Part shown: positions 57,888 to 62,680 of the stretch, piece after piece
Position numbering within the stretch: the first letter of the stretch is position 1
Layout of the letters: every line of letters begins with the position of its first letter
Source of the DNA: Candidatus Kapaibacterium sp.
GTDB taxonomy: Bacteria > Bacteroidota > Ignavibacteria > Kapaibacteriales > UBA2268
Direction: 5' to 3'
Assembly: GCA_013414795.1 (NCBI GenBank)
Contig: CP058732.1
Span: 2,083,950-2,147,949 of the forward strand
Length of the DNA: 64,000 bases
The notes under the pieces: generated by a model
What the model was told of the DNA's origin: nothing
Seen by the model: the letters and a program-made list of their open reading frames with translations, nothing else
Database searches by the model: none
Position numbers and translations under genes: made by a program

Positions 57888-58784
57888 TTAAAACGACGCT
57901 GCAAGAGCAATTGACATAAGTTTACTTTTTTCGGTATCTGCACGAGAAGTTAGAACAATTGGCACCATAGCCCCGAGGATAATCGCAGCAACAACTCCGC
58001 CAGCAAAATATGTAAAACTTTTGTAAAGTGCATTTCCAGTTTCGATTTCTGGGGCTACGAGCAAATCCGCATCGCCAGCAACAGGACTAACAATTCCTTT
58101 ATGCTCGGCTGCTTCTTTCGAAACAGCATTGTCGAAGGCAAGCGGTCCATCAATTATGCAATTCTTGATTTGCCCCCGCCGATTCATCATTGTTATCAAT
58201 GCTGCATCAATTGTTGCTTGCATCTTGGGATTGACATTTTCGACAGCCGCAAGCAACGCTACTTTTGGATTTTCAATACCCAATCTTCGCAATAAATCGA
58301 CGCTGTTTTGAACAATTGAGACTTTTTCTTCTAGATTTGGTGCAATGTTCTGAGCAGCATCAGTCAAACCAATTAATTTGTGATATGCGGGGATTTCAAA
58401 CACACCAATGTGACTTAACAAATTTCCAGTTCGAAGTCCAATTTCTTTATCCAAAATTGCACGCAAGTAATCCGCAGTATTTACAAGCCCTTTCATAATA
58501 ATTTGTGCCTTGCCTTCGCGAACCATTTGAACCGCAATTCTTGCAGATTTCGCTGGATTGCTTTCTTCAATAAATTCATATTTTTCAATATCAAACCCAA
58601 TTTGATTTGCTAAGTCTTTTGTTTTCGACAGGTTGCCAACTAATATTGGTTCAACTATTCCAATGTCCGTTGCTTGTTTCAAAGCCAGAAGGACTTGTTC
58701 ATCTTCTGATGCTGCAACAGCAATTTTCTTCTTTGGCTTACTTAATGCTATTTCAACTAAATTTTCAAGTTTGTTTAATTCCAT
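57888..58784 (-). CDS. ptb: phosphate butyryltransferase
   Basis: 298 residues of the phosphate acetyl/butyryltransferase family, near the usual Ptb length of about 300. It transfers an acyl group between CoA and phosphate, typically butyryl-CoA to butyryl phosphate. Conserved segments are IIMKGLVNTADYLRAIL, GLTDAAQNIAPNLEEK and ALITMMNRRGQIKNCIIDGPLA. Phosphotransbutyrylase may also take branched-chain or other acyl groups. AAGGAG overlaps the stop of hutH, so ptb is translated from the same message. No butyrate kinase gene is in the window. Confidence 0.85.
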   Translation of the reverse strand: MELNKLENLVEIALSKPKKKIAVAASEDEQVLLALKQATDIGIVEPILVGNLSKTKDLANQIGFDIEKYEFIEESNPAKSARIAVQMVREGKAQIIMKGLVNTADYLRAILDKEIGLRTGNLLSHIGVFEIPAYHKLIGLTDAAQNIAPNLEEKVSIVQNSVDLLRRLGIENPKVALLAAVENVNPKMQATIDAALITMMNRRGQIKNCIIDGPLAFDNAVSKEAAEHKGIVSPVAGDADLLVAPEIETGNALYKSFTYFAGGVVAAIILGAMVPIVLTSRADTEKSKLMSIALAASF

Positions 58785-58795
58785 TTCAACTCCTT

Positions 58796-60319
58796 TCAGT
58801 CTAAAGGACCAATTTCTTTTTCAACTTCTTCAAGAATTTCGCAACTTTTTACCAATTCTTTCATTTTGTTATGGTCTGGATATAATGGTCTATCCACTTC
58901 GAGGAAATCGACATATTTTCGGACAACTTTGCGAGCGGTTTCGACGCCTCTTCCAACTTTGAACTTCCTAATGTCGAGGGCTTGGGAAGCAGCCATAAAT
59001 TCGATACCCAGGACACCATAAGCGTTTTCAAGAATTTGCGCATTTTTCAAAGCAGTGTTCATTCCCATTGAAACGAAATCTTCTTGGTCAGCAGCAGCAG
59101 GTATCGATTGAATAGACGCGGGAACCGAAAGTATCCTTTGCTCGACAATAAGGGTATCGGCAGTGTATTGGCTAAGCATAAGCCCAGAATAAAATCCTGG
59201 ATTCAGGCTTAAAAATGCTGGCAAACCTTGACTAAGTGCGGGATTCAATAATCTATTCAATCGTCTCTCCGAAAGAACGCTTACCATTGTAACGCTTGCT
59301 CCTACAAAATCCATAGGCAAAGAAATCGGCGTCCCCTGGAAATTTGCACCAGTAAGGGTCAAATTGTCTTCCACGACGAAAATGGGATTGTCGCCAACTC
59401 CATTGAGTTCAATTTCAACTTGCTTCCAAGCATATTCAATTGCATCGCGTGCGGCACCAATGACTTGCGGCGTCGAACGCATCGAATATGCATCCTGTAC
59501 TTTGGTTTTAACTTTTCCAGAGACCAAATCGCTCCCTTCAATGCATTTCATAATTGCTCGGGCGCTTTTTATTGCTCCTTCAAATCCACGAAGTTTGTGT
59601 ACACGTTCATCGTACGGTTTCAAGTTAGCAAGTAAGGCTTCGAGGCTCATCGCAGCAGCAATTTCTGCTTGCTTAATCCAGCGTTTAATATCCCAAAGTT
59701 GTAATGCACTTATCGCTGTTATGAAATTTGAACCATTAATGGTGGCAAGTCCATCTCTTGCTTGCAACCCAGGTATTTTGATGCCCGCCCGCTCGAAAGC
59801 AACTCGACCTGGCAATCGCTCGCCATTGTAAAATGCTTCGCCTTCGCCCATCATCAGCAAGGCAATCTGGGACATCGGTGCAAGGTCGCCGCAAGCACCA
59901 ACAGAACCTTTCGTACAAACTACGGGAATTACATTTTTATTTAGCATTTCAACTAATGTTAAAGTAATTTCTGGACGACAAGCAGAATACCCTTTTGCGT
60001 GAACGTTGATTCTGCTTGCAATTGCCCCGCGAACCCACTCGATTGGCATTGGCTCGCCAATTCCAGCAGAATGATTATAAATCAAGTATTTTTGAAACTC
60101 ACGGACTTGCTCGTCGGAAAGTACGATTTCCGAAAATTCACCTATACCAGTGTTCGTTCCGTACATCACCTCACGAGCAGCAAGTTTTCGCTCAAGCATT
60201 TCGCGACAGGCTTTGATTCTATTAAGCGAATCCTCTGCTAATTCAACTTTTTCTCCATATCTTGCTATTTTTACAAGTTTTTCAATTGTTAAACTCTTAC
60301 CATCAAGAACTATAGCCAT
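58796..60319 (-). CDS. hutH: histidine ammonia-lyase with Cys in the MIO tripeptide
   Basis: 507 residues, aligned colinearly with Pseudomonas HAL over the first 200. Tyr53, His83 and Asn195 stand at the same numbers, and Gln275, Tyr278, Arg281 and the Glu in AADQEDFVSMG match the HAL pocket. The MIO cofactor normally forms from Ala-Ser-Gly; here it reads Ala142-Cys143-Gly144 within GSVGACGDLAPMSQ. A Ser143Cys mutant of the Pseudomonas enzyme is known to be active. The Asn at 82 and Phe after QED differ from typical HAL. No other hut genes are nearby. Substrate histidine is likely but another aromatic acid is possible. Confidence 0.87.
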   Translation of the reverse strand: MAIVLDGKSLTIEKLVKIARYGEKVELAEDSLNRIKACREMLERKLAAREVMYGTNTGIGEFSEIVLSDEQVREFQKYLIYNHSAGIGEPMPIEWVRGAIASRINVHAKGYSACRPEITLTLVEMLNKNVIPVVCTKGSVGACGDLAPMSQIALLMMGEGEAFYNGERLPGRVAFERAGIKIPGLQARDGLATINGSNFITAISALQLWDIKRWIKQAEIAAAMSLEALLANLKPYDERVHKLRGFEGAIKSARAIMKCIEGSDLVSGKVKTKVQDAYSMRSTPQVIGAARDAIEYAWKQVEIELNGVGDNPIFVVEDNLTLTGANFQGTPISLPMDFVGASVTMVSVLSERRLNRLLNPALSQGLPAFLSLNPGFYSGLMLSQYTADTLIVEQRILSVPASIQSIPAAADQEDFVSMGMNTALKNAQILENAYGVLGIEFMAASQALDIRKFKVGRGVETARKVVRKYVDFLEVDRPLYPDHNKMKELVKSCEILEEVEKEIGPLD

Positions 60320-60390: not shown

Positions 60391-61074
60391 TTATTCGTTT
60401 TTAAATTGTTGCTCGTATTCTCGGATTATTTGAAGGCTAGCGCTTGTACCAATTCGAGCAACTCCAAGATTTATAAAATTGTATACTTGTTCAAGAGTGC
60501 GGATTCCGCCAGAAGCCTTTATCTTCGTGTTACCAGAAAGGTTTTCGCGAATTATCTTCACATCATCGTAACTTGCACCCCGCGATAGTATCCCAGTAGA
60601 AGTCTTTACAAAGTCCACACCAATATCACAAAGCAAGCGAGTTGCAAGAGCAATTTCTTCGGGTTGTAGAAATCCTGTTTCGATAATAACTTTCAACTTG
60701 ACATTACTCGCTCGGCAGATTTCCAAAGAATCTGATATTTCTTTTTCGACGAGCCCATAATCTTTATTTAAAAATGCGGGAAGGTTCATAACAATATCAA
60801 TTTCGTCCAACGAAGTTTTTACCAAATTTTCGACTTCGGCAACTTTGGATTTAAGAAGTGAACTACCATAAGGGAAATCTACAACAGAAACAACCCGTAC
60901 AGAAGTAGTTTTCAATTTCGACACTGCAAAAGGAACGTAATACGGTTGCAAGCAAACCGCAAAGAACCCATTTTCCACTGCTTCATTACAGAACTCTTCG
61001 ACCTCGGCAAAACTAAGATTATTCTTCAAGTTAGTATGGTCGAAATATTTTGCAAAATTTTGAATTTCATTCAT
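60391..61074 (-). CDS. deoC: deoxyribose-phosphate aldolase
   Basis: 227 residues, the class I aldolase that splits 2-deoxyribose-5-phosphate into acetaldehyde and glyceraldehyde-3-phosphate. The Schiff-base lysine lies in DFVKTSTG, the second Lys in IKASGGIRT, and DHTNL opens the protein. The ATG at 61074 is preferred over a TTG at 61080 because AGGAG lies at 7-8 nt spacing. It overlaps the upstream barrel gene by 8 nt and so belongs to the dprA-to-deoC run. Confidence 0.94.
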   Translation of the reverse strand: MNEIQNFAKYFDHTNLKNNLSFAEVEEFCNEAVENGFFAVCLQPYYVPFAVSKLKTTSVRVVSVVDFPYGSSLLKSKVAEVENLVKTSLDEIDIVMNLPAFLNKDYGLVEKEISDSLEICRASNVKLKVIIETGFLQPEEIALATRLLCDIGVDFVKTSTGILSRGASYDDVKIIRENLSGNTKIKASGGIRTLEQVYNFINLGVARIGTSASLQIIREYEQQFKNE

Positions 61075-62680
61075 ATTCAAACTCCTCTCCTAATATACCT
61101 GGCAATTCAAATTGATGGGATTTAAAAATAGAAAACATTTGGTCGGAAGATATTATTATCTCTGCAAATTTTTTCCTGTCGAAATTGAAAGCAAAATCAA
61201 TTCGTATAATACCAAGTTTCCCCGAGGTTTTATCATTGTGAATGCGAAAACCAAAACCAGCGGAATTTCGCCACCGTGATTTGAAAATTTCGGTATTTTG
61301 GTTCCAAACAGTCCCACCATCGTAGAACAAAACGCCTGAAAATTGAAATATCCAAAAGTGAACATTCGGGAAAAATCTAAATTCAAAATTCGCAACCAGA
61401 CGATTGTCGCCAGCCAACTCGTTAAGAGTATAACCTCGAAGATAATGTTTGTCATCAAGCAAAAGTTGACGAACACCACGCCAATTCCACACCGTTTGTT
61501 GCTTGACTTGTGTTGCAAACAGAATATTGTCATTAAAACGATAGTACATCAAACCCAAAAATTCTTGGTAAGTATTGAATCCTATGGAATTTGCAAAGGC
61601 GCTTCCTCCCGCCAAACGGCCAAAAAGGTACACTCGTTCATCTGGTGAAAGATAGGACTTTTCGCCTACACCGGCAAGATAAAAAGCATCCGTTCCGTTT
61701 GTATCGATTTTAAATGTTCGTCCAAGAACTGCACTCCCCCAGCCACCGACAACTATATCTTCCGTTAAAAAAGTATTTAATTTATCACTTTTATAAAAGT
61801 TCTCGGATATAGAAGAGAATGCAACAAATATTCTACCAGAATTGTCAAATGCACGGGTATATGTTTGCGCTCCACGAATAACTTTCCTCACATCAAGCAA
61901 CCCCGAGATGAATAACCTATCTTCCTTAAACCAACTGTGCGAGTACCAAATTGTTCCACCTTTTTCGTAAAAATTCATTTTCTGGTATTGACCGTTGCCA
62001 GTAAATAGTAAATCGTTGCCAAAATTATTAACGATAGTCGCTCCAAAGGAATTCTTTGTCTGTCGAGAGAAAAATGGCTTCCAAAAGGAAAGATTATGTA
62101 AAGTCCGAAATCGGTTAATGAAGAATTCATATTTGATCGAAAAATCGGAACGGAAAAGTCTTCGTTGGTACAACTTTGCGCGCACTTGCATTCGGGTGTC
62201 GTTTTCGCTACGGTAAAGAAATTCGGGTACAATTGTTGTCCCAGTGCCAAGAAAATTCAACTCTTCTATTCGGAAGCCAAGACGATAGGCTTCTCCACCA
62301 GTACCAAAAAGCAAAGAGGGATTTGTCGACCAACGATCTTTGGTAACTACATAAACATTGCAATTCAGTGGATCTAATGAATCGATTGTTATTTCGACAC
62401 GAGAAAACAAGTTCATCGAGCGAAGGTTCTTTTCTGTTTCGAGCAATATATTATCATCAATAATATCACCTCTTGAAAACAGCAGTTCGTCCTCAATTAC
62501 ATATTGGCGAGTTAGAAAATGCAAGGAATTAGCAAGTTTTGCAGCAAAAAACCAATCTTTGCTAGTAGAATCAAACACATTTAAACGTTCAATAAAAATG
62601 TCGTTTACCCTAAATTGTGAGAAAGCGAAATTTGTAGATAGTAGAAACAACGCAAGCAAAAAACTAATACGAGCGAACAT
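61067..62680 (-). CDS. POTRA and beta-barrel outer membrane protein (BamA/Omp85-like)
   Basis: 537 residues. A signal peptide (MFARISFLLALFLLSTNFAFSQ) leads a single POTRA-like module (about 60-115, with DELLFSRGDIIDDNILLETEKNLRSM reading as FSRGDIIDDN and RVEITIDS), then a beta-barrel region typical of bacterial surface antigen (D15) proteins, with YLRGYTLNELAGDNR and FYDGGTVWN near the C-terminus. BamA itself has five POTRAs and is larger, so this is an accessory Omp85 relative. It overlaps the polyprenyl synthase gene by 17 nt and deoC by 8 nt. Confidence 0.82.
   Translation of the reverse strand: MFARISFLLALFLLSTNFAFSQFRVNDIFIERLNVFDSTSKDWFFAAKLANSLHFLTRQYVIEDELLFSRGDIIDDNILLETEKNLRSMNLFSRVEITIDSLDPLNCNVYVVTKDRWSTNPSLLFGTGGEAYRLGFRIEELNFLGTGTTIVPEFLYRSENDTRMQVRAKLYQRRLFRSDFSIKYEFFINRFRTLHNLSFWKPFFSRQTKNSFGATIVNNFGNDLLFTGNGQYQKMNFYEKGGTIWYSHSWFKEDRLFISGLLDVRKVIRGAQTYTRAFDNSGRIFVAFSSISENFYKSDKLNTFLTEDIVVGGWGSAVLGRTFKIDTNGTDAFYLAGVGEKSYLSPDERVYLFGRLAGGSAFANSIGFNTYQEFLGLMYYRFNDNILFATQVKQQTVWNWRGVRQLLLDDKHYLRGYTLNELAGDNRLVANFEFRFFPNVHFWIFQFSGVLFYDGGTVWNQNTEIFKSRWRNSAGFGFRIHNDKTSGKLGIIRIDFAFNFDRKKFAEIIISSDQMFSIFKSHQFELPGILGEEFEYE

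Follow-up and report, generated by a model that had tools for sequence, protein, structure and literature searches.

Histidine ammonia-lyase (HAL) of Pseudomonas putida (PDB 1b8f, 1gkm, 1eb4) carries its MIO precursor as the tripeptide Ala142-Ser143-Gly144. In a passage of PMC3903478 on this tripeptide, ASG is called strictly conserved, and work cited there gives a more than thousand-fold loss when the MIO serine of HAL and PAL is mutated to Ala. A passage of PMC9002059 names Ala, Ser, Cys or Thr for the first position and Ser only for the middle one. In the literature searched, most of it open-access, we found no published report of a natural Cys at the middle residue; sequence databases may already annotate such proteins. 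A laboratory S143C mutant of P. putida HAL, from the 1994 work of Langer, Lieber and Retey, is said to be active, so that Cys should be able to serve as MIO precursor. The lyase described here would likewise use Cys, which in the mutant was an engineered single change, whereas here it is natural and long-kept.

The window, by which we mean the whole 64,000-nucleotide stretch of DNA that was analysed, contains a hutH-like gene (Table 1) whose translated product is KGSVGACGDLAPMSQ. The sequence-only reading had found in it the motif GSVGACGDLAP, with a TGC-coded Cys143 at the place of Ser143 and with Ala142 and Gly144 kept, and both the ORF sequence and an alignment to P. putida HAL bear this out. 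The tripeptide was located by that reading at 59889-59896, an interval one base short of the full span, 59896-59888. A phmmer alignment to P. putida HAL (1gkm) is gap-free over residues 9-216, with Cys143 opposite Ser143, and therefore Tyr53, His83 and Asn195 indeed keep their Pseudomonas numbers; two extra residues are present in P. putida HAL after window residue 266. Both proteins share Tyr53, His83, Asn195, Gln277, Tyr280, Arg283, Phe329 and Glu414, which we take to be the active-site residues of HAL. They are about 34.5% identical, and the window lyase differs by Cys for Ser143, Asn for Ser82, QEDF for QEDH and an extra Cys135. That Asn82 and QEDF are unlike common HAL had been remarked before, and the alignment agrees.

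Table 1. Position of the lyase gene, its motifs and the adjoining genes in the window.
Feature	Position	Strand	Basis or remark
hutH-like gene, 507 aa, PF00221 aromatic amino acid lyase, NTGIGE/QEDF subfamily	58796..60319	-	ORF and profile matches
MIO-precursor tripeptide Ala142-Cys143-Gly144	59888..59896	-	aligned to Ala142-Ser143-Gly144 of P. putida HAL
Codon TGC for Cys143, replacing Ser143	59891..59893 (read 59893-59891)	-	counted from sequence
Cys135 (PVVC), subfamily-specific, just upstream of the MIO loop	59915..59917	-	alignment
QEDF, window residues 412-415, subfamily mark	59075..59086	-	most other HALs here have QEDH
Phosphate butyryltransferase-like gene (PTA_PTB), downstream, 11 bp from hutH, context only	57888..58784	-	Pfam
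DeoC-type aldolase gene, upstream of hutH, context only	60391..61080	-	Pfam

The PF00221 match of the window lyase covers all 466 profile positions and scores 538.5 bits against a gathering score of 27.3, and the X-Ser-Gly that defines the MIO precursor in this family reads Ala-Cys-Gly. With 527.4 the protein lies above the cut-off of 524 of the NCBIfam subfamily model NF006871 (histidine ammonia-lyase), and it stays below those of the equivalog models for HAL (TIGR01225, 495.8 vs 539.15 bits), tyrosine 2,3-aminomutase (TIGR03832, 365.7 vs 501) and phenylalanine ammonia-lyase (TIGR01226, 224.5 vs 519.15). An AlphaFold2 model built on 30 sequences has a mean pLDDT of 93.3, and its three top PDB matches are mutants of P. 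putida HAL (TM 0.93), so the fold predicted by this model is shared. The best sequence match among solved structures is HAL of Thermoplasma acidophilum (PDB 7tqr), which has the same fold but is of the QEDH type and lacks the NTGIGE motif.

A sequencing or assembly error, with TGC standing for TCC or AGC, had been named as one thing that could undo the observation. We regard its probability as negligible: Cys143 is also found in the four genomes of the same genus that were searched (loci L031, L035, L039 and L044) as well as in 25 of the 30 distinct rows of the subfamily that come from 60 genomes including the window's own, and at least 115 loci elsewhere encode the Cys motif. These other assemblies rule the error out, and the intact ORF with its complete active site rules out a chance or decayed gene.

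The loci elsewhere come from a scan of one genome per species with an exact degenerate DNA pattern that encodes the Ala-Cys-Gly motif. All 115 matches listed have an open frame with the motif, and 102 of them are of one type, in which GSVGACGDLxP is followed by M, the sequence YGxNTGIGE or one close to it is present and QEDF or QEDY is found where covered. By their motifs, the other 13 of the matches listed (L068, L074, L080, L082, L085, L094, L105, L119, L120, L133, L144, L149 and L157) are ordinary or related lyases. Titles seen for 80 of the matches listed, the majority of them metagenome bins, place the subfamily in, among others, Myxococcota, Thermoplasmata, Aminicenantes, Zixibacteria, Ignavibacteriales, Kapabacteria, Bacteroidales, Acidobacteria, Chloroflexi, Cloacimonadota, Delongbacteria, Elusimicrobia, Eisenbacteria, Fermentibacteria, Planctomycetota, Gemmatimonadales, Sumerlaeota, Krumholzibacteriota, Coatesbacteria and WOR-3.

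A tree was calculated by a quick IQ-TREE search (LG+G4, columns 82, 143 and 416 excluded, support as SH-aLRT) from 364 lyase sequences, which gave 301 rows after identical ones were merged and short or contained pieces dropped; the program warned of long branches and odd letter composition for some rows. One group of 136 rows comprises all 132 with the NTGIGE-type and QEDF/QEDY marks plus four truncated ones, and it is split from the rest of the tree by a branch of SH-aLRT 100. Residue 142 is Ala in all 136 of these rows, and residue 143 is Cys in 126 and Ser in 10, many rows having been picked for Cys. In P. putida numbering, Tyr53, His83, Gly144, Asp145, Asn195, Gln277, Tyr280, Arg283, Phe329 and Glu414 are present in all tabulated subfamily rows wherever the alignment covers them, the gaps being truncated ends. 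Outside the subfamily, Cys143 occurs in 14 of 165 rows, which by their sister rows represent about eight separate lineages (L085/L068, L082/L149, L105/L144/L074, L120/L157, L080/L318, L094, L119 and L215). The canonical HALs with sporadic Cys143, such as L080 of Aliidiomarina taiwanensis, share Ala-Cys-Gly with the window lyase but have the ordinary QEDH background and separate places on the tree.

Residue 82 of the subfamily is Asn in 116 rows, Ser in 19 and a gap in one. Since subfamily rows with Ser143 retain both Asn82 and QEDF, these are marks of the subfamily and not partners of Cys143; the ordinary-type Cys143 rows have neither. Cys135 is found in 93% of the subfamily rows with Cys143, in 90% of the 10 with Ser143 and in 0% of the other rows; in this alignment it thus goes with the subfamily, whichever residue stands at 143. 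A Cys135-Cys143 pair is unlikely to be the point of the change, because the Ser143 rows keep Cys135.

A few lyases stand apart. L215, from the Elusimicrobia genome G148, sits on a very long branch; it combines Ala-Cys-Gly with QEDV, and its Pfam match falls into two low-scoring pieces of one frame. L271, L272, L273, L274, L301 and L349, from the archaeal sample, read Cys-Ser-Gly, with the Cys at residue 142 and not 143. The HAL-like proteins L251, L252, L255 and L190 have Asp, Thr, Thr or Cys aligned at His83, and their substrate may differ. In a genome of the same order, a 92-position lyase-like match (L060, G037:C1:1831727-1832002) lies inside an open frame of 2952 aa; we found no MIO motif in this fragment, which was left out of the counts.

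For counts free of any choice for Cys, PF00221 was the sole criterion for drawing five samples, whatever their residue 143: 60 genomes around and including the window's (58 with a match), 79 from the phylum of L091, Elusimicrobia (8), 39 from the phylum of L125, Cloacimonadota (38), 60 from the archaeal phylum of L081, Thermoplasmatota and kin (52), and 39 from the family of L080 (32). Only matches long enough to span residue 143 were counted. The 59 distinct lyases of the window's relatives comprise 25 Cys and 5 Ser within the subfamily and 0 Cys and 29 Ser outside it. The corresponding distinct rows are 2 Cys/0 Ser and 1 Cys/5 Ser for the phylum of L091, 6 Cys/5 Ser and 0 Cys/35 Ser for that of L125, and 10 Cys/0 Ser and 0 Cys/44 Ser for that of L081, where the fragment L309 could not be mapped; the family of L080 has no subfamily member and 2 Cys/28 Ser outside. 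In total, 197 distinct rows give 43 Cys/10 Ser in the subfamily vs 3 Cys/141 Ser among other lyases, and residue 143 is nothing but Ser or Cys. The samples are chosen groups with related rows, neither random nor independent, and a Fisher p therefore says only that Cys and subfamily co-occur. Ten further matches, kept apart from the 197 rows, all have Ser143. Nine are from the family of L080 and lie outside the subfamily by motif; the tenth is the partial L349, with YGVTTGIGE and Cys-Ser-Gly, which is off the tree and, if it is a member, would bring the subfamily to 43 Cys/11 Ser.

Parsimony on the 53 subfamily rows requires 7 changes with a Cys root vs 9 with a Ser root, hence at least 7 switches, and Cys is the commoner and probably also the older state within the subfamily. 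If it is older, each departure led to Ser, though single-base changes of TGC also give Arg, Gly, Tyr, Phe and Trp. Both Cys codons are used (TGC 88, TGT 38), which is what selection acting on the residue would predict.

Why Cys stands at this residue can be approached through the codons. According to a passage of PMC6872785, a single base change leads from TGY to either set of serine codons, AGY or TCN, and a direct switch between these needs two changes. Cys143 could be a neutral stand-in, that is, a stepping stone between AGY and TCN that brought no special benefit and became fixed in one old branch, and we are evenly divided about this reading, which is compatible with the best explanation given below. 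The Ser rows of the subfamily use both codon sets (AGY 6, TCN 4), as they would if Ser had come back from Cys, and Cys may therefore be an intermediate that was tolerated and then retained. No direct AGY-TCN switch is needed in the subfamily with a Cys root, where the cost is 9 by unit or two-step weights, but equal costs are weak evidence when Ser rows are few. Ser codons are mixed outside the subfamily too (AGY 101, TCN 49), and AGY, TCN and TGT all occur in the 30 lyases from the family of L080; over the whole tree, however, many AGY-TCN switches have no sampled Cys between them (lowest cost 38 vs 52), and Cys in 43 of 53 subfamily rows is more than a passing state would give. We think it rather unlikely that the change of leaving group was itself selected, with an old cross-phylum HAL subfamily, bacterial and archaeal, maturing MIO from Cys by default and releasing H2S, for easier maturation or for gating by redox state or thiol-binding metals; beside a Ser-type HAL, its members might then be condition-specific or mixed-subunit partners.

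The genomic context points to histidine. In the window genome the lyase is the single PF00221 gene, and the rest of the histidine-to-glutamate pathway was found as hutU (C1:2284083), hutI (C1:836282) and ftcD (C1:914668), none of which is near it. The window's family, its own genome included, has hutU in 22 of 24 genomes, hutI over the cut-off in 13 of 15 and ftcD in 15 of 15. Whereas ftcD is present in all 15 of these genomes (G000-G014), it is found in 0 of 9 genomes from other families of the order (G036-G044), and the final reaction of histidine breakdown does not seem to be the same in the two groups. Of 28 genomes selected among those of the 102 subfamily loci to cover a wide range, 23 have hutU, a raw co-occurrence count for a gene that is itself common; 16 of the 28 have no PF00221 match besides the lyase, and 12 of these 16 have hutU. 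Clustering places urocanase on the pieces (up to 8 kb) of six loci of the subfamily (L061, L062, L097, L102, L148 and L161), all six passing the TIGR01228 cut-off, and histidyl-tRNA synthetase on nine pieces. The 74 same-strand frames within 250 bases of subfamily genes have hisS (6) and hutU (5) as their two commonest families. A PTA_PTB gene, as downstream of the window lyase, occurs twice among the same frames.

Ordinary HAL genes of the QEDH type with Cys143 also lie beside hutU by clustering in L080, L119, L120 and L157, the hutU of L080 being checked by HMM, and hutI is in the piece of L133, another ordinary-type locus. Thirteen genomes have Cys143 in lyases of other types; a Pfam search found hutU in 12 of them, and in the thirteenth, that of L119, clustering shows a urocanase-like piece next to the lyase. 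Aliidiomarina taiwanensis AIT1 (L080) is a strain and not a bin; its hutU immediately precedes hutH, and L080 has a further Cys lyase, L318, as its neighbour on the tree.

It is improbable, in our view, that MIO forms from Cys143 but the histidine context is incidental, the main substrate of the subfamily being a different amino acid or its main activity that of an aminomutase. The score below TIGR01225 would suit such an enzyme, as would Asn82 and the Phe of QEDF, which are unlike canonical HAL, but His83 and Glu414, which are marks of HAL active sites, are kept. Likewise, hutU was not found in 5 of the 28 subfamily genomes, one of which (G080, with L113) is titled a chromosome, yet hisS and hutU lead the scanned neighbours and the window lyase is the sole one in a genome with hutU, hutI and ftcD. 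In twelve genomes a subfamily gene (Cys 10, Ser 2) has a canonical Ser-type HAL as its same-strand neighbour, and there it may have a different role. The 12 result from 22 loci after duplicates were merged by hand, and the pairs (L066, L077, L088, L125, L139, L168, L181, L242, L244, L245, L277 and L279) occur in either gene order, in hosts that include Cloacimonadota, Delongbacteria, Thermoplasmata-like archaea and Melioribacteraceae. Their stop-to-stop frames overlap or are about 30 bases apart or less, in L066 about 290. Such tandem pairs could be mixed-subunit or condition-specific enzymes.

We consider it quite probable, judging from these comparisons, that the gene product is a functional histidine ammonia-lyase from a distinct subfamily spread across phyla; it would make MIO from Ala142-Cys143-Gly144, probably with loss of H2S, at a site where Cys and Ser are largely interchangeable. 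In this self-cyclisation the Gly amide nitrogen would attack the Ala carbonyl with loss of water, and elimination of H2S from Cys143 would leave the very dehydroalanine part that arises from Ser143 by loss of water; the mature enzyme and its reaction, presumably histidine to urocanate and ammonia, would be as in ordinary HAL. Support for a working HAL comes from the restriction of residue 143 to Ser and Cys, the complete active site, the histidine context and the Cys143 of ordinary HALs beside hutU; counted against it are that no hut gene adjoins the window lyase, that it scores below the TIGR01225 cut-off, that the search for hutU was negative in 5 of 28 genomes and that 12 genomes have a canonical HAL gene next to the subfamily gene. 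Cys143 might also stay unconverted as a free thiol, so that the protein has no MIO and is dead or performs other chemistry. The sequence comparison, from which conversion itself is predicted, yielded nothing in favour of such a protein, and we hold it to be very improbable: Cys is repeatedly exchanged with Ser only, the other residue able to give dehydroalanine, the residues of the MIO pocket are kept, and Cys143 occurs in ordinary HALs beside hutU. The earlier suggestion of a working natural variant is well supported by conservation across many phyla, the occurrence of Ser and Cys only, the complete active site and the histidine-pathway context.

Within the lyases compared here, the Cys143 swap is the usual state in a large family branch across many bacterial and archaeal phyla. 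Motif rules that demand Ser would miss or mislabel these enzymes. They offer a natural case of Ser/Cys exchange at a catalytic site and a ready test of how far the leaving group limits maturation, and the natural, long-kept Cys form suggests a second evolutionary precursor for the self-made MIO cofactor.
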